NCBI RefSeq assembly: GCF_020520425.1
Contig: NC_079491.1
Span: 1,860,001-1,924,000 of the forward strand
Source of the DNA: Spinacia oleracea
Lineage: Eukaryota > Streptophyta > Magnoliopsida > Caryophyllales > Amaranthaceae
Length of the DNA stretch: 64,000 bases
Direction of reading: 5' to 3'
A program made the translations under genes and the position numbers. Under the pieces are notes generated by a model. That model worked only from the letters and a program-made list of their open reading frames with translations, ran no database searches and had not been told where the DNA came from. Shown in pieces: positions 20,571 through 48,425 of the stretch. Position 1 is the stretch's first letter. Each line of letters opens with the position of its first letter.

Positions 20571-22002
20571 AGATCGTTTTGAATGTTTAATTTGAAAATT
20601 TCAGTTCACGTAATTTTAATTAATTTTAAAATTAATAATTTGAATTAATTTCTTGGATTTTAATTTTGAATATTATAATTATAATAAATGGAATTTATTC
20701 TAATTATTTTACTAAAATTAAAATCATGAATTAATTTAAATGCGGCTGAAATTAAATTAAATTTTTGGATTCAATTATAAATTGATATGAGCTTTAAATT
20801 TTAATTAAATTTGTATGTTTCCGGTTGGACTAGAAATACATTTTTATGTTTAAAATTGGTAAAGCATATGAATTTATTGGTTTAAGTGGGAGCGCTTTTT
20901 AGTCATAAACTCTTGATTAGGTCTACAAATCCTTAAGGTTAAAACAACTCGATTAGAATTAATAAGGACTGAATAATTGGTAGATTATTGGTGCCCTTGA
21001 TTAATTGCTGCAAATGTTTACGTGATGCATAATGTGTTTTACTAACCAGCTATGTGGGCCATTCATGATAATGAATGGGTGAATGGTATATATTGTATAT
21101 GTACTGTTTTGCAGGTTATGAAGTGACTAGTATGGCCCAAATAGGATAGAAAATATGGTCTGCGTACCATTAATTTGAATGTAATTGGTCTAAAGCACCA
21201 AAGTTATTTTTCAATCAAATATGGTCTGCGTACCATCAAATAGTTGTAATTAGTTATAGCTTATCCTATTTGAAGAAAATGGTGCCTCCCACGGAGATTT
21301 TCAAGACGGACTTTGAAGTCAAAGCTTCAAGATGAAGTCGGGCCATACTAGATCACAAATATCTTATGCATGTTTTAAGTTATTTATTGTTTTAAATATG
21401 TCTTAAAAATGCATGAGATCAAAAGCTTGATTATGTTGCATGATTAAGGATTTTAGTTCACTTAAAATCTAACCAACATAGTAAGAGCCTTAAGTTCCAA
21501 ACTTAAAAATTGAGTTAAAAGGTGCCATGCCAAAATATACACTTGCTTGGATATCCTTTACATCAATCTAGTAATAGTTTTCGCTCAGCGAGGTGTTACT
21601 TATTGGTCCTAAAGGGGCAAGGTACACAAATAATTGTGAGTACATGTTAGTTTTGGTGAAACTCAACGATATAAGTAAGGAGTCCTTTTATGTCGTGGCA
21701 AATTCGATAGGTTTACCTAATAAGTTCTTAGACGTACCTATCAACCAAGAATAGTTTCTAGACTATTAGCAAAAGGCTTTTGCTTACCTAAGATGTTCTA
21801 GGATTAAGTCGACAAACTGTGCTTAGTTCTTCAATGATTTTAGGATCTTGGAATCATTTTATTCACACCTGCCGGAACACATAACTTGAATAAAATGCTT
21901 AATAAACATTGAATTATGCATGTATGCTAGAATTTAAGTTTATTAAGAGAAACTGTGAATGGTTATTTATTTGTTTATTCTTTTCAATTGTAGTTTTTAA
22001 AT

Positions 22003-25000
22003 ATGGCAAACAACAATTCATTCAACATTCGATCAATTCTCGAAAAGGAGAAGTTGAACGGGAAAAACTTCCTTGACTGGCAAAGGAACTTGCAAATAGT
22101 TCTTATGCAGGAAGAAAAGGAGTATGTCCTAGATGAGGCGATGCCCGAAGCTCCTGGCGACGGGGTCACTCAGGCTGCCCTCAATCGTTGGATTGATGCC
22201 AACAAGGATGTGAAATGTCTAATGCTCGCCACCATGAGTGCGGATCTGCAGAAAACGTTCATCAACTCAGATGCTTTCACAATCATCAGTGAGTTGAAGA
22301 ACATGTTCCAAGATCTGGCTCGAGTCGAAAGATTCGAGACTCATAGGCAAATTCTTGAGACCAAGCTTAAGAAAGGCGAGCCCGTAAGTCCACATGTTCT
22401 CAAAATGATTGGACTCATTGAGAATATGAGTCGGCTGGATCAGCAATTTTCTCAGGAAATGGCTATAGACACCATCCTCCATTCTCTTCATAGCGGGTAT
22501 GATCAGTTCAAACTGAACTACAGTATGAATAGTCTGGACAAAACGCTCACTGAGCTTCACGGTATGCTGAAGACCGCTGAGAAGACGCTCAAAAGTGATA
22601 AGCAGGATGTGCTTATGGTGCGTGGGGGCAAGTTCAAGAAATCTGGAAAGAAGAGGAATGCTAAGAAAGGTGGCAACAAGGCCAGCCCAACTAAGCAAAC
22701 TGGCGCCAAATCTGCAAAGAGGAAGGTCAGTCAACCCACTTCTGAATCCGAATGCTTCTACTGCAAGAAGAAGGGGCATTGGAAGAGAGATTGCTTGAAG
22801 CTAAAGGAAGATCAGAAGAACGGAACAGTCGTTCCATCTTCAGGTATTTTCGTTATAGACTGTATACTTGCTAATTCAACTTCTTGGGTATTAGATACAG
22901 GTTGTGGCTCACACTTATGTTCCAATCCACAGGGACTAAGAAGAAGTAGAAAGTTAAGCAAGGGTGAAGTCGACCTACGAGTGGGAAATGGAGCACGGAT
23001 TGCTGCATTAGCCGTAGGAACTTACTATTTGTCGTTGCCCTCCGGGCTAGTTTTGGAACTGGAAGAATGTTTCCATGTTCCAAGTCTTACTAAAAACATC
23101 ATTTCAGTTTCTTGCTTAGATGCTAAGGGATTTTCCTTTATAATAAAAGACAATAGTTGTTCGTTTTATTTTAAAGAGATGTTTTATGGATCTGCTAGAT
23201 TAGTCAATGGACTTTATTTATTAGATCACGACAAACAAGTATATAACATAAATACCAAAAAGGCCAAAAAGGATGATTCAGATCTCACCTATCTGTGGCA
23301 TTGTCGATTAGGCCATATAAACTTGAAACGCTTAGAAAGACTTCAAAGGGAAGGAATTCTAGAACCATTTGACTTAGAGGATTATGGTAAATGCGAATCA
23401 TGTTTACTTGGCAAAATGACAAAGCAACCTTTCTCTAAAGTTGGAGAAAGAGCAAATGAACTATTGGGTTTAATCCATACAGATGTATGTGGACCAATGA
23501 GTACAAATGCTAGAGGTGGTTTCAGCTACTTTATCACTTTCACTGATGACTTCAGTAGGTATGGTTATGTCTACCTAATGAAGCATAAGTCTGAATCCTT
23601 TGACAAATTCAAGGAATTTCAGAGTGAAGTAGAGAATCAATTAGGCAAGAAGATTAAAGCACTGCGGTCTGACAGAGGCGGTGAATATCTGAGCTATGAA
23701 TTTGATGACCATCTGAAAGAATGTGGAATTCTATCAGAATTGACTCCTCCTGGAACACCACAATGGAACGGTGTGTCAGAACGGAGGAACAGAACCTTGC
23801 TAGACATGGTCAGGTCAATGATGGGTCAGGCCGAACTTCCATTAGAATTTTGGGGACATGCACTAAATACAGCTGCACTCACTATAAATAGAGCTCCGTC
23901 TAAAGTTGTCGAAAAGACTCCATACGAATTATGGTTTGGAAAGCCTCCAAATGTGTCTTTTCTTAAGATTTGGGGATGTGAAGTTTACGTCAAACGATTA
24001 ATTTCAGACAAACTTCATCCAAAATCTGACAAATGTATCCTTGTGGGCTATCCAAAGGAAACAAAGGGGTATTACTTCTACAATACATCTGAGAACAAAG
24101 TGTTTGTTGCTCGAGATGGTGTCTTTTTGGAGAAGGATCACATTTCCAAAATGACAAGTGGGAGAAAAGTAGACCTCGAAGAAATTCGAGTCGAACAACA
24201 AACTCTAGAGAATGCTCAAAATGACATTCAGGATGAAACTCAGAGATCTTTAGAAGAATCTGGTGAGAATCATGGTCAATCTAGAAATGTTACCCCGCGT
24301 AGATCGCAAAGATATAGATCTCAACCGGAAAGGTACTTAGGTATTTTGACGAACGAGAGCTATGACGTTCTATTACTTGAAAGTGATGAACCTGCGACTT
24401 ACAAGCAAGCTATGACGAGCCCTAGCTCCAAGCAGTGGCAAGAAGCCATGCAATCTGAATTAGACTCCATGTCTGAAAACCAAGTATGGGATTTGGTCGA
24501 TTTGCCAGATGGCTACCAAGCCATTGGAAGCAAATGGGTTTTCAAACTGAAAAAGGACAAGGATGGGAAACTTGAAGTTTTCAAAGCTAGATTGGTTGCA
24601 AAAGGTTACAGGCAAGTCCACGGTGTGGATTACGATGAAACCTTTTCACCAGTTGCAATGCTAAAGTCTATTCGAATAATGTTAGCAATCGCTGCATATT
24701 ACGATTACGAAATATGGCAGATGGATGTCAAAACTGCTTTCTTAAACGGCGTTTTAACAGAAACTGTGTTTATGACACAGCCTGAAGGTTTTGAGGATCC
24801 AAAGAATGCTAAAAAGGTATGCAAGCTAAAGAAGTCAATCTACGGATTGAAGCAGGCATCCAGGAGCTGGAATATACGTTTTGATGAAGCAGTCAGTGAC
24901 TTTGGTTTCATCAAAAACGCGGACGAATCTTGTGTATACAAGAAGGTCAGTGGGAGCAAAATTGCTTTCCTAGTATTATATGTCGACGACATATTGCTTA

Positions 25001-35360: not shown

Positions 35361-38300
35361 TCAAGATTCTCGGTATTTTGTCAGGTCAAACGTCAGCGTG
35401 CTGGAACAACTGCAGACAACGGAGAAATTAGCAAATATTGAAAATATCCTGACTCAAACGGCCCGTTGAGTAGCCGGTAATAAATGGTGGGAATGGGGAT
35501 AAATATAAGTGTTATTTGACAAGAAAAATAACATCATAATGTTCATGATAATGAAACTTATATCGAACCTGGTGTTTTTCTCCATAAATTTGAATTCTCA
35601 TCCAATACCACTCCCCAAAATGGTAATGGATGTCAATGTAAAATTATGAAGAAAAAGAGATCATTTTGAGTGAACCATCGTTACCATGGAAATGAATGTT
35701 GATTTTCCTTACAAATTTACCTACAAATTCATTTCCCATTGTCACCATGGCCAGCTACCAAACGAGCCGTAAATACCAAGATGTATTGTAACCGCTTATT
35801 TGGGAGTTTAGTTTAGTTTAGTTTAGCTCAGCTCAGAAGAACAGGGCCTAAACCTATTAAAGCACAAGAAAATAAGTGAGATAGAGAAGGAACTGACCTT
35901 CGCTCAGAATCCCTGTAAACCCCAACTAAAGCTTCAGCCTTGTCATAAAAGCTGTCCTTTAGCGATATCACAATACTTTGGAAACCACAGCCTCCATCAG
36001 CATCCTGGTCAAGTCGGGCTCCTCCACAGGATTTTGACCGGATGAATCCAGCTACCTTGGCAACGTTTAGATTATCTAAAGCCGCATCAACCTCATCCAA
36101 AATGAAGAATGGTGATGGCTTAAAACTGCACATATAGATGGAATAGGTCAGTAAACAGCAGAATGCATACAAAAGTTAACTTTCCCTAAGGTTACAGTAA
36201 AAGAAAAGAATCAGGGAAGACATTTAAAAGAATTTTGGGTAATATGTAAAGTTCACTCCTATTTCGCCAACCCTCAGAAATCAAACTCCTTTATTAACTT
36301 ATGTCAATGGTTCTATTTGGTACAACTCGGAAGCTTATAAAGCAATATCTCGAAAACAAACCCAATTATCCAAAACATAAACAACTAAGAAATCAAATAG
36401 ATAAATGGTAGAATTAAATAATCCAATGACGCAATGCACCACACCTGTGTATAGAGAAGAGCAATGCCAGAGCAGCAACAGTCTTTTCACCACCAGAGAG
36501 CTGTTCCATATCACGAAACCGTTTTGTTGGAGGCATAGCAGTGTACTTGATACCATATAAAAACGGGTCATCCTCGTTTTCCAGATTCAGATATGCTGTC
36601 CCCCCAAGTGGATGTGTCTGGCTTCTGGTCAATTGTTTGTATATCTTGTCAATGTTATTTGAAATATGGTTAAAAGCATCCATAAACTTCTTGTATCTGC
36701 ACAAGAAAATTAATGGAAATCTCGTCATATTCTTCTGAAGCAAAAACAAAGCAATGGTCAGGCCGCCAGATATACAAATTTGCAAAAGTTAACACAGGGA
36801 GAGAGGTGCAAATAAATGAAGACCCCAAAATAGAATGGAGAGATGACATGCTCAATTACCTTACAGAGCTGAACTCATATCACAATCTTTCTAAATTCAA
36901 ATGAAAAAAGAATAGGTACCTTTGATCTCTGACTGCATTGAATTTGTCAGCTATTTCTTTCTCTTCTTTTCGAGCAGCATCAAATTCCTTACTTACAAGA
37001 TCCTCCTTTTGTTTTAGAGCCTCATACTGGTCAAGAGCCTTCAGATTAGGGGCTGATCTTTCAATATCTGATACGAGCGCATCAATCTTGTGTTTAAAAT
37101 CAGCTTCCTGCTTTTCCCGTTCAGATGGCCTCATATCCTTCTGCAGGGATCTATCCAGCTCACCAAATTCATAAACTGGACCTTGGCTGGAATCAGTTTC
37201 CATTGGGTCCGAGACTGTGGGCAGACTTATTTGCTCTAAATCACACTTCTCAATTATCTCCTGTTTCCTTGATGAGAGAGTATCAATTTGCGTTTTCTGG
37301 TAAAGATTCAAGGCATTTTCAGAGTTGTCAAGAATCTCGTCAAGAAATCCTATTATCATCAAGAATAGAAGAAAGGAGCTTAGAAATAGTCATAACTAAC
37401 CTTAACATTAATTTGACGGTTCAGTTTATCTAAATTTGTCATGCCACGGGAGATCTTTTTCTGTATTTCATGCTTGCCACGTTCACATTCTTCAAGCTTG
37501 GACTTCCACTCTAGAAGCAGAGAAGGATTTTTAGGAGAGCTTAGATTCAAAAAAATAGGAAACAAATAAATTCGAACAGTCACAAAGAGAAAACATTATA
37601 AATTTTCAAATGGAGAGGGAAGACTCAAGGTATCTATAACCATAAAAAATTTCCCTTTGTATGGAGCGAAAGAAGGGACTTGAAGCCTCAACCTAGAAAA
37701 TTTATGCAGTCTCTGAAGACTGGACCTCTAATTTCATTTTATTTATTGGGTTGGGAACAAGGGAGGAAGGCAAAGAATACCTTGTAACTCATCCTTTATT
37801 TGATTGATCTCGGTGGTAATACTCTCCATTTCTAACTTAGCTTCAACTTCTTTGTTCTGAAGGTTATTGAGTTCATCTTTCAAAGCATCAAGTGATGACT
37901 GAATCTGCGTAATTTGTGATTCCAAATCCTGGTTCTGCTCATACTCCATCCTGAAAATTTCAAGGAAATTAAAACACTCGCAAAAATACGTAATCAAATG
38001 TTCTAAAAATTACATTAAATTAAAAGATAAGTCCACACTCCAGCCAGGCTGACTCCAAAAACTACACTAGTGGTTAGTCTGGTTACAAGTCATGGCAGAA
38101 AAAGAAACATCACATGGAAAGCAATGTATTACTTCCTACGTTCCCCTAAAATTGCAACAAGGGGGTTTGGCTAAAAAATTAAGGAAGTGGGTAAGTGGTG
38201 AAAGGGGACCACAAAATCATGGGATACACCCCAAAAACCAAGTGAAAAAGAAGCTTACGAATGTCAACAAGGGAAATTTGGGTATTTGTAGAGTGAAAGG

Positions 38301-41300
38301 AGATATCGGATTTCATTAAATAGAAATGTTGCAACATTTGTGAAACTTCCTTAAATGATAATTGTTGCTAATATTAGCGAACGGAGGAAATAATAAACAA
38401 AATAGTGAAGTTATTCACTTTCAGGGAAGGTCATTCATACAGTAAAAATGGTTGAGTTCAAATTCCATTGTTCAGTACTTCAGTGCTTTGTAAAAATTAA
38501 AAAGGAACGTCAAAATACACCATATAGTACTTCTCTAAATGAAGCAGCAAATTTCACATTCGTGTTATCGCATATGTAGGTGGCATGGGCCTTAACTGTA
38601 CATATATTTCACTATTTCAGTCTACTCTTGTAGTAGAACACCATATTCTCAAGCAGATTTTGAGTAGCCTAGTGAACTTGAATATAACAAACTTTTATGT
38701 TGTCAGCCTTCTGCAATAAAACACAAAGAGGGACTAGAACCAATGTATATCTGACTTGGTTTTCGTCTTCGTATCAACTTTCCTAAACTCAAATATATCT
38801 CAACAATGTATCTGTATAGGAATCACTCTTGAAAACACTAAATGTAAAATTCTAGTTCCAGGAGATTAGTGCCTCTACGTCAGAAAAGCATTTACTCAAG
38901 ATAAGAAGCACATAGGATTTTGTAATCAAAAGGACAAGGACTAACCATTACCAAGAACATTAGACAAGGCAACCGGGACTAGCACACATGGAATCTCAAA
39001 AGTGGAGTATTATTGGAAAAATTGAAACACCTTTGCCTAAAGGTTTTTATCATCACCATCACGGAAATGCAAATTATCTTCTGCCATTTTTATTTCTAAA
39101 GCGAGAATTCCTTTCTTTGACGCTTATTTATCAATTAAACAATAAAGTAACTTAATCTAAATAAACATTGGTAGTGCGACACATGAAGTATAAAACAAAC
39201 AGTTATGAAAATGACAAAATGAAAGTAGAAACTTACTGATACTTAAGCTTTGATATTTGGTTACGCAATGAGGCCTTTTCCTCAAAGGTCTCTGCATCAG
39301 CTGTGAGTTGTGTCTCCTCATATGCCCGGATATCAACACCAACAGCTTCCCTAAAATCTTTGTAGATATGATCAACAATATCATTTATCCTTGTCTCCAA
39401 CTTCTTTATTTCTCCATTCCTCTTCTTGATAGCAGCAGCTAACTGCAATAGACCACTACATAAAATCCAGCATGGGCACAGTTTATGCAAAATCTAAACA
39501 ATATAAAGAAATTTGCATACATTTGCATGATCAGGCTCAATCCTGCGGATTTCTTCTTCGATGTTCCTCTTTTCATTTGCCAATTTCTTTAGTTTGTCCC
39601 GAATACTTTTCTGCAAGGGGGGGGATGGAGAAAAAGTACTCAGTGATGACTGTTAAATGAAATCTAATACTCAAAAAGAGTTAAAAGAAGACATTGACCT
39701 TCAAGACACAGCAACATCAACTACAGATAATGACGATGTCGTAGCATAACACACTAAATAGCCACACAAGGGTTCAATTATCTTTTATTAATGTAAATTT
39801 CACTATGCCCTGAGCCCTCTAGGCCCTAGTACAACCTACCCAAAACTGGTATACAATGGGTATCCTACATAACATAACCCCTGATGGTATACAATGGGTA
39901 TCCTTACCATATAGAGTTCTAGACTACAACAGAATTGATATACAATGGGTTAAATAGAAACTTACCTCTTCTATTTCTGCATACTTCATCTTCTTTTCCA
40001 AGCCACTAATCTTTACAGAGACCTCTGTCTCTCTCAGATGCATTTCCCTGGGCGACTCCGTAGACTCCAGCTCAGATTCATATTGTTCTTTCTTTTTCTT
40101 AAGCCCTAAAAAACAGCAGTAAAAGTTAAAGCTAGTAGAGGAAAACTGACATTAAAATGACGCATAGAACACCAACCTTCAATTTTCTTGTCATCCCATT
40201 TGTTTGACCTTGCCTCCATTCCACCAGTAGTGCCACCAGTCATAGTACCAGCTTTGGTGAGGAGAATGCCATCGGTAGTTACAACTGACAAAATTTTGTA
40301 TTATTAGACCCAAACAACAAAATACTGCATATAGAATTGCAAGAATTGATGGCAAACCAAAGAAAGTACACCTTTATGTCTTTCCCCTGTCCAGCTTAGA
40401 CGCTTGGCTTCATCAAGATTGTCACAAACTAAAGTATTCCCGACAGCAAACAAAACTGCTTTCTCCAAAGCTGGATCAAACTTGCCATAGTTAAGGAAAT
40501 AAATTCATTCATTGAAGATACCGAGAATAAGAATAAATCATGTTCAGGTCATTTAACGTCACTCTAAAGATCTGGCATGCCAGCCAAGGGCAAAGACCAC
40601 AAAAGGGCAACCTTTCAATTGATAATGTTTATGTTTAGCAGAAACCAAAAGGTAAAGAGAAATAATGCAAAACCAGCGCTCAAACACAAGGTCTGTACAT
40701 ACTGTTTGTGTTTAACAGAAACCAAAAAATATACTTCGTAAAACGATTTGAGAGCCTACCGACCTACCAGCGCGTTCTGCAATTGACACACACCTCATCT
40801 TACAAAGAAAACACTAGTTCAAATTTCAAGGAGAAATAAGCTAACAGCTAGCAAATGCGCGCAAGATAAGCTGTGGTTTGACACCCAATAAAGTTGAAAA
40901 TACCCTGCATCTACAGATAAAAAGCTGAAAAAACATCTTTTGCTCTTCTCCTGGACAACGAATCCTAATTTCTCCGGAGCTCTATGCAATCACTGGAAAC
41001 AGCAAAGTAACATGTATAGTGAAGAAAACAAATGCTAGTAAACATAAAGACATTTTCATGAAGGATATTGTATCACATCATAGACCAACTTTGCCGTACC
41101 ACCTAATGTCCGCAACCTCTCAATGACTGGCTTCACCCGGACCGATTGAAGAGGGATGAAAGTCTGGGGGGGAAGCCTCTGCTCTTTCAAGTACTGCAAC
41201 GATCAAACAGAAAGTGTCATTGACATCAAAAAAATTTCCATACCCTCCACCAAAATAAATAAAAAACATTTGACGAAAAAAAGAAAAAATGAAGCATAAC

Positions 41301-44300
41301 AAAAGAAGGGTTGGAAAAGGCCAAAATTCAACCAGACACACCAGCAAATCAATTACAGGACGACTCTCTTACAGTATATGTATCACACGGTTTATTTGAA
41401 TCTACATACTCAAAAAAATCTCTTATATGTCAGGTTGACTACTGCAATGAGGATTAATGTAGTAGAATCGGTGCATAAAGACTAACAAAAAAATATATTA
41501 GCAGTTAAAAGAAAGTAAGTATTAGTCAATAGCGCTGCCATAAAGGAGAGATAAATGTGTCTTAAACTACTACTTGGACAATAGCCAAAAGTGTAAAGCA
41601 GTGTGATAAATGAAGCAAAATATAGAGGGGTTTGTGGTCTAAACTACCACTACTCACGTTTCTGACTGACCAAAGATAGCCTCATCGATGCCACAGATAA
41701 ATGGAATAGCTTATGTTTGAAAATGACCTCCATTCAACACATCTTACACCCAGTTGATGTTGGTTTATGTCACTTTAGCTCTACATTTAATTTCAAGTTA
41801 CCTATGTGGTATTAAATCCAAACCCGACATTTTGATTTTCACCTGGAGATCTCAGTTTCCGTAAACCACTTGATACAGTGGACTGAGATCCTCTCTTTAG
41901 CCAAACAAGCAGACTAAATGAAGACTGGAATTCCAACTAAAAACATACTTCATCAAGATTCGAGGGCAAGCAATTACATGAAGATGAAGAAGTGACAAAG
42001 GCCCAAGAGCCTCAAAACAGCATTTGAGATCCGTAAAATGACGCATTTTATTTGAAAAAGGCCTCAGTAAACCTATACCTTTATGCACTCCTTTCCAGTA
42101 TGCTCATCCTGAACTACCACAGCATCCATGAACTTCCCCATAGCAACAGTTACAGCCAAGTTATATTTCTTTTGTGTAGGACGACAAAGCTCCGTCATTC
42201 GACCATGGACACCAGAAAAAAGGCGCTTAAGAGTATCAACAGTTTGAGACAGTCTTACATCCCTCTCATTTTCATGTCTGTCAGCCTTCAATTCACGCAA
42301 CTGATTTTCTACTTCACCTAATAGTAATTTCAGTCTATCATACTGAGTCCTGCATCAAAGAAAGATAAACATGAAACGTAATCACCTCGGCAACATAATG
42401 TAGACAAATCAAAAAGGGAATTGCAACAGCTGAGAGCACAAATAGTCAAGAGGATCGAATTTGAAAGACACAACAGAAAAATATGTCACTAAAAATTATG
42501 GTCACCAAAAGCATTAAGAAAAGGTACCTTGATTTTTGACTTTTGTTCCGCATCTCCTCGCGTTCCTTTTTCAAGCGTTTCATCTCTTTCTCATGATCCT
42601 TTGACGCCAGTTGATCTCTATTTAGTCTTGCATTCATTTCCTCCTCTTGTGAATTCAGTTCCTCAAATCGGCTTTTCAACTGCTGAAGATTCTCATCCAA
42701 GTTTTTTTGAGCCTCGATATCTGTCCTGTGTTGCCTATCCAGAACCTCTTTTTCATCTCTCAACTTCACAGTTTTATTCATTGCTTCCTCCTTACTGCAA
42801 CATCATCAGATCATTACACATGTAACACATCGGACCCAAAATAGGTGCAGTTCTAGTGGTCTCTAAAAATAATTGCTGATCTTTTGCAACAATGATACTA
42901 CTGAGTCCTGACTGCATACTTTATTTAGAGAACACTCACCTGTGCTGGACATTTAGGGAATCAAAGTAATTAAAATTATATGGTGCCACTTCAAAGGTTG
43001 ACATTCAAATTAACCCAGAATAATTAAGAAAGTAAACATCCCGGTTTTCCACATTGTACCAGTGAACAGAGAGGACTGCTAAATCCTCCCACCCTCTTTT
43101 ACTGCTATTAGATTAACAAAACCTATTCACGGTTAATGCTTTGGGTATGAAAACATTACGAAGACGTGACTACTTCTTCATCGTCGCAGATAACTGATAT
43201 TCTTGGCTGTTGTCAGTAAAAATGGTGGGAAATAAAGAAATGTATGTCCCAAGCTAGCAACATTCTTTAATATCTCATACAACAACTATCCCCTGGCCTC
43301 GTTAACATAACAAACAACATAGAGGCAGTAACTGCATAGCCAACTAAAAGTTAATGGCTGCCAGGGAAATAACAGGAGGAACAGCTAATTCAACAGAAAA
43401 ACTACAGAAACCAAACACCTCAGACAAAGGATCCATTACAAAGGTACGCAGACAAAGAACAGCTCCGGTAATGTGAGATGCAGATAGCAGATAATTCATT
43501 ATGTCCTTTTCTATCTTATGGTTGCAAGCCTCCATCATCACACACCACAGCACCCAATCACACACAAAGGTAGGAGAAAAGGGAGCTCAACAAAACCAAG
43601 ATGAGTGGAAAGAGAACGCACTGGAAATTCTCTCATTTATTTCACCAAAACATTTGTAATTTCTAATTATACCTTAGCAACTCCTACACTGTCTCCTGAC
43701 TCCAGAGTGTAGCCCCATTCCCTGATATCAGACATCAATTTTGTTGCTATCGAATGCAGTAATCTAAAGTTGTTGAATTATTAGTTTAAATAATAAATAT
43801 AAAAAAACCACTGAGATAATCATTCAATAATTAGTAGGCTATCAGTAACCAAGACACAAGATAACCACAGTGTTTACTTAGTTTCTCTGACCAGGACCAA
43901 TCCTTGAATATTTCATAATCTCATTAAATAAATAAAAATTATCAACCTTTTGCATATTTTATTATTTACCATGCACTGGTAAATGTCCCAGAAGCTAAAA
44001 ACTGAACAAACATATCTTACGTCAAGAGACCAGCTTAGTAATACATATACATGGAAATATATCCACAATGCTTAATGAAGTAACGGAAAAAATATATAAA
44101 TGCAATGATAAACACCGTAAGAAGCTTACATCCGGTAGTATTCTTGCAATTCAGTTTCTGTCAATTGGACTTTCCCCCCAACATCAGGTCCACTTTCCTC
44201 CATGTCTTTTAATCGTTGAGTTAAAACCAACAAGTCTGCCTTAAGCTTCTCTACTTTTCCAGCATGTTTTTTCTTTTCTTCTCTCTTTTTGTCAAGCTCC

Positions 44301-47300
44301 TTTTGAGTACTCTTCATTTTTGATTTTATGCGTTTCATTTCCTGCTCCAACTTCAAGAGTTCATGCTGCCAGATACACAAATAAAAGTTAGCCTCTGTAA
44401 TCAAAAGTGTAAGTCGGTGAATGGAAGAGTTTAATGACCTATAAAACTAACATTCTTGTCAAGTTTATTATTCTTCTCTACAATTTTTCTTTCAAGTTTA
44501 TTTATCTCTTTCTGGTATTTAGCCAGCTCTTTCTCTTTTTCACGCTTTTCCTGTTCGTAAGTGTTTTGTTCTTCAACAAGCTGTTGCTGGCTTTCTTTCT
44601 CAGCTTCAATTTCCTCATTAATCTTGTTTATATCTCTTTCTATGTTATAAATCTGCCAGAGGAAATGTTCCTTCTTCAAGCTTTTCTGCAAAAGAGACGA
44701 AAGAATCAGCATGAGCAATTTTCATGAGCTTTATTGAAAAAGAAATATCTCCATGAAGCCAACAGGAAAATGGCCCCACAATCTTTCAGTTAATGTTTTC
44801 TAGGAATCAATGAATTCAAAATTGTCAAAATTTCATTTACAAAAGGTTGGAGGAAACAGACTTTACATTCTCCCTTTGGCATAGGGGGCAAGGAATGAAG
44901 GATTTGAACTTAGGGCCAGTAACAGCGGAGAAACAGAAAAGTGCTCCAAGTCCCCAAACATCAGAATAGAATTATTTAGAATCAAAGACAAAAAAGACAC
45001 AAAGAGAGATCCAAAACTTTCTAGTTCTTACGGATCCAAAACTATCTATAGCCCATAAAAGACAAAAAGAGAATTAGAATCATGAAATCAGGTATAAATC
45101 CAAAAGAAGCACCAAATAATCCACAAAACCTATTACATATTACTCACGTCACATGAATATTACCCTCTTCAATAAATACAACATGATTCAAAATATTGTC
45201 CTTTATAAAAGTTAGTGTCATCCCCATTCCTCTGATCTTTATAACTCAAAGAAATTAAGTTGTGGAATCTCGAAAATTCTGATCGCATTTACTACTCCCA
45301 CCATCCCCAATTATTGAACCCCTTTTATTAGAGTTCATTTTAAGAAGTTGAGCAAAAATGCCATAAAGAAAATTCCCGCTCCCCACTATGGCATAAGTCC
45401 CATAACGACTCATAAGGTAATCTAACCTTTAATATTTAGTTAAATGATATCATGCAATATGGTGAATGTTCAAAGTTAAACTTACAAAACATAGTAAATG
45501 GTCAATTAATTTCAGACAGCTACACAACCATGAATAGAAATATGGTCTAATATCTAGGAAAAGAGAGAGTACTTTTTTAGGAAAATTACTACTTCATATC
45601 CCAACTAAATTAAAATGATTATCATTTCCAGAGAGAGGAGGCACCAATTTTTCTTGCAAGCGAAGATGTCTTTCTGCTTCTTCCTTTTGCTCCTTTTTCT
45701 GTTTCCTCTCCCCAACTATTGTTTTCTTACGTTGATAAACAAGAGCTGACGTTTCTTCTGCCCTGGCTTTCTGTTCTTCCAACTCCTCATAGTCCTTCTT
45801 TTGCTCCTCAGAACCAGAAATCTGCTCAAGTAGTCCTGTCAGTTCTTTGGGATTCTTGGACGCAATCGACTCCACATCTCCCTGCATTGCCAAAATTTCA
45901 GCAGCTAAACTTGTATGTAACAAAAATTCAGAACATATACAATCTATAATTTTTCCCTTCAATCAGTTGAAAGGAAACCTAAGGATTTTCCTCAATTGGC
46001 CAAAAAACAAAAATGAAATTGTTAAAAAGAATTTTCCTTTCTGGTTTTGTTACCAAAAAAGGGAAACCGATAAACAATCAACATAAAACAATGGGGTTCT
46101 CTGTTGATGAGAAAGAGTGAAAACTTCATCCAATCAATTTAAAACAAACCCAAAAGAAAATCAAGTAAATAAAAGTATGTTAAAGGACAATAAATTTCGG
46201 AGAAAAGTTGATTTTAACAATTAAAAGGCTTTAAATGCAATATGGAGATACTGAGATCTCTTGCATATATTTTCCATATTCACTTTTATGTCCTAATACC
46301 AGCACAACAGAATTATAAGTTTCCATGACCATTTGATCTAGAATCCAATTTCTTACTTCAGTTACCTTAGGCCCTGTTCTGCTCACCTTATTTTCACTTA
46401 TTTCGGGAAAAATAAGTTCAGTTAAGTTCAGATAAGATAAGTTCAGGAAAATAAGGGTTGGCCAAGTACAATTTATAACTAAAATAAGTTTTGATAAGTT
46501 CAGATAAGTTCAGATAAGTTCAGTTAAGTTCAGATAAGATAAGTTCAAGAAAATTAAGTGAAAATCGGGTGAATAGAACGCAGCCTTACGCATTCTAATA
46601 TTCCAAGTACAGAGATTAGTGATCAATTTGCTCACTAATATATACTCCCTCCGTCCCACAAAAAACATCTCATTTCTCCCTAAATGCTTGTTCCAAAAAG
46701 ATACTCTCATTTCTCTTTCGGATTTGGTCCACTGAATATAATAATGTTTTCTTACTCCTCTTTATTCTTTTTTATTCTCTTCCTCTCTACTCCCTTAAAG
46801 CATTATGGTCCCCACTTTTTCTCATTACAGTTGAAATTGAAAAACAATAAATAATACCTAGTTTTTCTATATTCACTTATATTCAACAAAAACCCACCCC
46901 CAATACTTTCCTAACACTTTGTGCCCAAGGGAGATGGGAAGCTTCTTTTGTTCAAAGGAGGAGTAGTATATAAAAGTTAAATCAAATGCAACAGATTTAC
47001 CATCTTTGCATATGTGTATTATTTTCTTTAGATGCTGAAAGAGTAATGTGATATTGTCAAAAACTCAATGTATGCAAAAAGAGTGTGAAGGGGACATATT
47101 TCCATATTGGTCCCTTTCTCTAAACAAGTTGCCACATGACTATTGGTCTTGTCCAAATGACAACGAACATCGACAAAATAGGAAATTTCCCGTGACATAA
47201 TTTCCCCCAACAAAATCATTAGACACACGGTCTTGTATTCGGTATGCAATGATGAAAATTTAACTTCCAATCTTCAAGTTTTCTTCCTTCCACAAGGCCC

Positions 47301-48425
47301 CAAACCGTAGGATGCAATTCACTCCTTTGCAAGAAGTATCGCTCAATGAAAAGCCTATCAAATTCAAGCGCCCAATTCATGTAAATTTGTGAATTGCAAC
47401 ACGAGCTTCTACAAACTAGACGAGCCTTAATCTATTACTTTAGTTGCACCTATAGATAAACCAAAGCCATTTTTAAGAAGAACTATGTCACCCTTAAAAA
47501 AAACTTCACAATGACTACCTAGTAAAATTCAACAACGGAACAACCCATTTCAAGTGAATTCTCTTACATAACAAGCAATGCATAGTTAAGTTCTTTTGTT
47601 TACCCAAACAATAGTTTAAAACTCCTATTCAAGAGATATTCAATCTCTCACATGAGTCTCTACCAACAAACAGCCGTTATCTAATCTCCGAGTTGTGAAG
47701 GACACAAATCACTCAACATAAGGCCCGAACACAAGGGGAGAGGAGAGCAACCAAATAAAACAAAGCCTGATTTCACCCCAATACAAAATCATAACAGTAG
47801 CACCGAAAATAAAACACTTCCTCCAATCCAAAACATATGCAGCTTTAGCCAATTTCTCTCAATCACTCTAAATCATAGGTCATTTTTATACTGCAAATAC
47901 AATAATTCATTCCTAACAGTCCTAAAAACACCTTAAAAGTGACCTCGTAAAACAAAAAACAAAAAGATCAAGAAATTAGAAAACTACCTGGAAAACAAGG
48001 AAATTCCGAGCTTTGACAAGAATTCCAAGTTCCCTCAACTTCTCATTATACTGATCCCAAGTAACCACCCTACCATCAATCCGATACTCACTACCACCTG
48101 AACTCGTAATAGTACGAGTGAAGTGAATCTCAGCACCAGAAGAAAGCGCATACACCAGCATAACATAAGCACGGCGACCGCGCTGCTCTCGCTCGCGGTC
48201 GTCGTAAGCGTAAATGAGGTCCTTGAGCTGAGCGCCACGAAGTTGGCCAGAGCGAACTCCGAGAACGAAGCTAATGGCATCCATGAGATTGGATTTTCCG
48301 GCGCCATTAGGGCCAATTATGGCGGTGAAATCGTAGAAAGGTCCAATTACTTGGTGACCTTTGTAGGATTTGAAGTTTTCTAGCTCTAATCGGAGGATTT
48401 TCCCCGGCGATGTTAACGCCGGCAT
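35361..48425 (-). CDS. SMC1: Cohesin subunit SMC1
   Basis: Eighteen exons: 48425-47988, 45881-45645, 44685-44452, 44365-44130, 42794-42528, 42349-42079, 41193-41069, 40481-40372, 40284-40177, 40105-39966, 39610-39521, 39442-39237, 37950-37781, 37510-37401, 37335-36920, 36696-36445, 36125-35898, 35409-35361. Phase closes at every junction, giving 1228 residues, the usual plant SMC1 length. Walker A GPNGAGKS at 38-45; first coiled coil to about 500; hinge (about 505-670); second coiled coil; ABC signature LSGGEKT near 1119; Walker [13 protein letters not shown] near 1142; C-terminus [14 protein letters not shown]1 pairs with SMC3 and an SCC1/REC8 kleisin to hold sister chromatids and shape chromatin in the nucleus. 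Most introns are GT-AG; intron 7 appears to be U12-type AT-AA. Several introns contain MITEs. Confidence 0.95.
38132..38390. mobile_element. Stowaway-like MITE in SMC1 intron 12
   Basis: 259 bp between TA dinucleotides. Left end CTTCCTACGTTCCCCTAAAA, right end (inverted) TTTCCTCCGTTCGCTAATAT. A 75-codon plus-strand open frame here is a chance frame in the MITE. Confidence 0.7.
40482..41068 (-). other. U12-type AT-AA intron (SMC1 intron 7)
   Basis: On the minus strand, exon 7 ends ...GATGTGATACA and the intron begins ATATCCTTCATG, a perfect match to the U12 5' splice site (RTATCCTTT class). Near the 3' end is TTCCTTAAC (40490-40498), a perfect U12 branch-point motif, followed 9 nt after the branch A by the junction ...GGCAA/GTTTGATCC. 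Removing 40482-41068 restores GTG ATA CAG TTT GAT CCA (VIQFDP), the sequence conserved in SMC1 hinges. No GT-AG alternative near these points keeps that frame. The terminal dinucleotides would be AT-AA, a rare class. Confidence 0.75.
45295..45569. mobile_element. Stowaway MITE in SMC1 intron 2
   Basis: 275 bp between TA dinucleotides. Left end CTCCCACCATCCCCAATTAT, right end (inverted) CTCTCTCTTTTCCTAGATAT. Ends are diverged, so it is older than 46645-46963. Confidence 0.6.
46370..46585. mobile_element. Harbinger-type (Tourist-like) MITE in SMC1 intron 1, best copy
   Basis: 216 bp, left end GGCCCTGTTCTGCTCACC, right end (inverted) GGCTGCGTTCTATTCACC, flanked by TTA on both sides (46367-46369, 46586-46588). 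The core repeats AAGTTCAGATAAG. A 3-bp TTA duplication with GGCC-type termini fits PIF/Harbinger. Confidence 0.75.
46645..46963. mobile_element. Stowaway MITE in SMC1 intron 1
   Basis: 319 bp between TA dinucleotides. Left end CTCCCTCCGTCCCACAAAAA, right end (inverted) CTCCTCCTTTGAACAAAAGA. Intron 1 (45882-47987) thus holds two MITEs of different superfamilies. Confidence 0.75.

Follow-up and report, generated by a model that had tools for sequence, protein, structure and literature searches.

The window analysed here, a stretch of 64,000 nucleotides of spinach DNA, carries an SMC1 gene with one intron that does not fit the GT-AG pattern of its neighbors, and it raises the question of where that intron begins and ends and which spliceosome would remove it. 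We modeled the gene by chaining open reading frames through GT-AG junctions, set the last intron by eye, and translated the result; the junctions of this model are predictions from the sequence.

35361 to 48425, minus strand: SMC1 coding span including the TGA stop codon, with 18 exons, 17 introns, and a product of 1215 amino acids without an internal stop.

The best match of the product among solved structures is SMC1A (E 1.2e-216, 725 bits, residues 11-1214) in entry 7w1m, which we take to be human SMC1A. Compared with these 725 bits, the best scores against other SMC proteins are 256 bits for SMC4 and 101 bits for SMC3. Full-length similarity, above that to other SMC proteins, thus identifies the gene by homology as SMC1 of cohesin. 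Sixteen of the 17 introns in the model have GT-AG borders, the single exception being intron 7, which is modeled as AT-AA and separates the following exons.

41069 to 41193, minus strand: exon 7, an open frame that aligns to the SMC1A hinge and ends with KLVYDVI plus the CA of a Q codon.
40372 to 40481, minus strand: exon 8, which begins with the G of that Q codon and continues for 36 further residues.

The exon frame is unbroken on either side of the intron. SMC1A chains read VIRYEP where the joined exons give VIQFDP, so that V and I are conserved across the junction. The intron itself contains the following elements (a slash marks a splice border here and below).

40482 to 41068, minus strand: intron 7, 587 nt, phase 2 within the Q codon (CA/G), borders AT-AA, putatively U12-type.
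41061 to 41068, minus strand: U12-type 5′ splice site ATATCCTT, an exact match directly at the exon border.
40490 to 40498, minus strand: U12-type branch motif TTCCTTAAC, an exact match with the branch adenosine at 40492 or 40491.
40482 to 40483, minus strand: 3′ terminal dinucleotide AA, the sole end giving VIQFDP among 35 tried.

U12-type 5′ splice sites follow the consensus RTATCCTT, and the U12-type branch consensus, TTCCTTRAY, lies near the 3′ end of the intron. Read on the minus strand from 41300 to 40300, the sequence across intron 7 runs ...GTCTATGATGTGATACA/ATATCCTTCATG ... ATTTCCTTAACTATGGCAA/GTTTGATCCAGC.... The first-pass annotation of this DNA had proposed an exact donor together with an exact branch motif at short spacing from the exon, and both are present, ATATCCTT at 41068 and TTCCTTAAC at 40498-40490, with 9-10 nt between the branch adenosine and the last intron base.

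With the donor held fixed, we scanned 35 possible ends from 40490 to 40456, and VIQFDP arises from the AA at 40482 only. Nine of the 35 ends received the frame flag, which records the peptide KAVLFAVG and leaves unflagged those in-frame ends that cut into it. The earlier claim that only AT-AA borders restore VIQFDP stands for this donor and is somewhat overstated where the protein is concerned, as TA-AG borders give the same protein. It had also been claimed that shifting the borders by one base leaves the mRNA unchanged. This is correct for the upstream shift (AA-CA); the downstream shift (TA-AG) preserves the protein but reads CAA, not CAG. The U12 register favors AT-AA among these one-base shifts on sequence grounds. 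Taken together, the gene model, the acceptor scan, and the motif pairing support the proposal of an SMC1 intron 7 with U12-type signals and AT-AA placement. We consider it very probable that intron 7 is a genuine A-type minor (U12-type) intron, bordered by AT-AA, in the hinge-coding part of SMC1, and we infer that the transcript is spliced at these borders by the minor spliceosome.

The strength of this assignment depends on how the motifs are placed. Taken singly, each motif is about as frequent in the window as expected by chance, with four copies of ATATCCTT against 3.98 expected and one copy of TTCCTTAAC against 0.96 expected. One exact donor in the window has an exact branch motif 40-1500 nt beyond it; since 15 of 300 dinucleotide shuffles also contain such a pair, the pairing by itself is only mildly unusual. 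The case for intron 7 comes from where the two exact motifs lie, correctly spaced at the border of a coding exon; the chance of finding them so placed at one such border, calculated as a product of shuffle rates, is ~4e-8 to 1.2e-7 over 16 introns. Looser motifs yield three donor-branch pairs in the window, two of them outside intron 7. The pair at 21551/22069 on the plus strand was rejected as an apparent coincidence, with its branch-like motif inside a stretch resembling a Copia-type gag, and the pair at 37133/37265, also on the plus strand, runs antisense within SMC1 and looks like a coincidence as well. The open reading at 22041-22400 on the plus strand, presumably that of a Copia-type retrotransposon gag (NGKNFLDWQRNLQIVLMQEEKEYVL-like), holds a chance TTCCTTGAC motif.

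Other placements of the junction must be weighed against AT-AA. Overlapping the U12 pair of intron 7 is a GT-AG pair that keeps the frame; splicing at it would take out exactly three codons (V, I, and Q) along with the intron.

41075 to 41076, minus strand: GT of a U2-type donor, GAT/GTGATACA, which is weak, in frame, and located 8 nt upstream of the AT donor.
40481 to 40482, minus strand: AG of the partner acceptor, GGCAAG/TTT, whose last base lies 1 nt beyond the AA end.

Both sites exist and keep the frame, so the major spliceosome could in principle excise this GT-AG intron and produce an SMC1 with a hinge shortened by V, I, and Q. We found no strong U2-type sites that would explain the junction, however, and the best GT-AG pair, at 5.57, ranks last among the 16 introns scored; the top junctions of the remaining 15 reach 7.32-12.51 (intron 17 was unscored). 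These scores use generic plant consensus weights and count the polypyrimidine tract within the score. Excision of the GT-AG intron would also delete the residues aligned to V-I-R of SMC1A and would leave the U12 motifs unaccounted for, and we regard it as very unlikely. The overlapping pair is probably an unused, twintron-like arrangement. A more elaborate version would make it a switch, in which a shortage of A-type minor splicing leads the major spliceosome to produce SMC1 with V, I, and Q missing from its hinge. Such a switch would tie the supply of cohesin to minor spliceosome activity. The signs that this fallback is used are its presence and its frame, nothing further, and we judge the switch distinctly improbable.

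Displacement of the borders by a single base, to AA-CA with the same mRNA or to TA-AG with the same protein and a CAA codon, would equally yield VIQFDP. The first intron base of U12 donors is A or G, immediately before TATCCTT, and both shifts leave this register; we give them almost no credence. In cDNA, a junction reading ...GTGATACAGTTTGATCC... would correspond to AT-AA (or AA-CA, which cDNA cannot separate from it, the mRNA being identical) and one reading ...GTGATACAATTTGATCC... to TA-AG, while the GT-AG intron would join ...TATGAT to TTTGATCC and read ...TATGATTTTGATCC.... A further reading holds that the true border is AT-AC and that the assembly carries an error at the last intron base. 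A single base change would suffice to restore this standard border, but the exon frame is unbroken on both sides and AT-AA is itself an already described, conserved plant border (PMC10639083), which makes an assembly error highly improbable.

We also searched the genome for other copies of the locus. At E values up to 10, the genome gives the 215-nt joined exons no match besides their own two exons, and the same holds for the joined-exon protein; there is no sign of an intron-less retrocopy among the best candidates that these DNA and protein searches score. The 3′ end of intron 7, allowing up to two mismatches, occurs at one genomic place, the window itself. Nine loci comprising other SMC-like and CCDC84 matches were scanned for U12 motifs, and none has a donor together with a branch motif; the scan gave a single ATATCCTT, in L007, and branch-like motifs in three rows (L018, L019, and L020).

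Removal of an A-type intron would call on the components of the minor spliceosome. Rfam models place one U11 gene, three U12 genes, and two U6atac genes over the curated cut-off in the genome. The Rfam model for U4atac finds no match in the genome, in a search where no control gave a signal either, and a 19-base stem II pattern for U4atac with at most one mismatch finds two genomic matches, both antisense within U6atac genes. The missing U4atac is more likely explained by the limits of the search than by true absence of the gene. In Arabidopsis, a BLAST search with human U11 and U4atac is described as finding nothing, with genes proposed later (PMC545797). The CCDC84 (CENATAC) family is represented in the spinach genome by three matches within ~10 kb on one strand.

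The sequence AGTAAGGAAA, present in two of the U12 genes (L009 and L010), can form 10 bp with TTTCCTTA-ACT of the branch region with one A bulged. In the third (L011), one base of the branch-pairing stretch is changed (AGCAAGGAAA), so that this copy may be weaker or in decay. A CCCATATC element lies upstream of all three genes, which also have a TATA-like box. Pairing energy with U12 does not single out intron 7 among the 17 SMC1 introns: when the last 45 nt of each are paired with the U12 stretch, the duplex energies are -9.4 for intron 9, -9.2 for intron 13, and -9.1 for intron 7. Pairing at the donor is not discriminating either, with a longest run of 6 in U11, 5 in U6atac, and 8 in an unrelated part of U12.

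The order of steps in the minor spliceosome is established knowledge, and a splicing route for intron 7 can be proposed along these lines. U11, and then U6atac, would read ATATCCTT at the donor. U12 would pair with TTTCCTTAACT, leaving the branch adenosine bulged, and the AA end 9-10 nt past the branch would serve as the 3′ splice site. The product would carry the junction ...GATACA-GTTTGATCC... and encode VIQFDP.

On this reading, a chromosome cohesion gene would contain, as its intron 7, a clean A-type minor intron whose end is non-canonical. Automatic annotation geared to GT-AG or AT-AC borders may misplace its junction. In human cells, A-type introns (AT-AC, AT-AA, AT-AG, and AT-AT) are described as dependent on CENATAC, the loss of which leads to chromosome segregation errors (PMC8280824). 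A dependence of plant SMC1 on CENATAC is a modest idea, and one that can be tested because a CCDC84/CENATAC-family sequence is present in the genome.

SMC1 intron 7 is unnamed in the titles and text passages covered by our search of open-licence literature, and it may well be listed in some supplementary table. One paper classes atSmc1 (At3g54670, the Arabidopsis SMC1) as a splicing-related protein, and its passages on atSmc1 contain nothing on SMC1 introns. A paper on minor introns that also came up for cohesin mentions SMC1A solely among its references. SMC is likewise absent from the passages of PMC2426677 and PMC2831892 that were covered, and the term AT-AA is absent from the main text of PMC7072748.

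How unusual is such an intron among those already described? The first-pass annotation had called AT-AA one of the rarest minor border classes, a description that does not hold for plants, where AT-AA is reported as the commonest non-canonical border of minor introns (PMC10639083). In that survey of more than 3000 eukaryotic genomes, ~4% of orthologous minor introns in plants have non-canonical borders, with AT-AA accounting for almost 75% of this fraction (PMC10639083). The product of these two figures puts AT-AA at ~3% of plant minor introns. In a separate comparison, the share of other borders among U12-type introns is 1.1% for Arabidopsis, 1.2% for maize, 3.8% for rice, and 0% for soybean (PMC7367187). 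AT-AA is uncommon yet well described.

Intron 7 shares the donor ATATCCTT, the branch motif TTCCTTAAC, the short distance from branch to acceptor, and the predicted AA end with the plant U12-type AT-AA (non-canonical A-type) introns, as these are characterized in the text of PMC10639083, and we found no difference from them in a comparison that covered passages of that text. U12-type AT-AC introns resemble it in donor, branch motif, and spacing; intron 7 differs from them in its last base, which is A, not C. The U12/U2 twintrons of the fly, described for prospero and the U2AF-related dURP in passages of PMC2831892, likewise combine a U12 pair with an overlapping GT-AG pair. In contrast to those twintrons, the GT-AG sites at SMC1 intron 7 are weak, 8 and 1 nt away from their U12 counterparts, and probably unused. 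Judged by its motifs and borders, intron 7 is most likely one more example of the described plant AT-AA class, here in SMC1.
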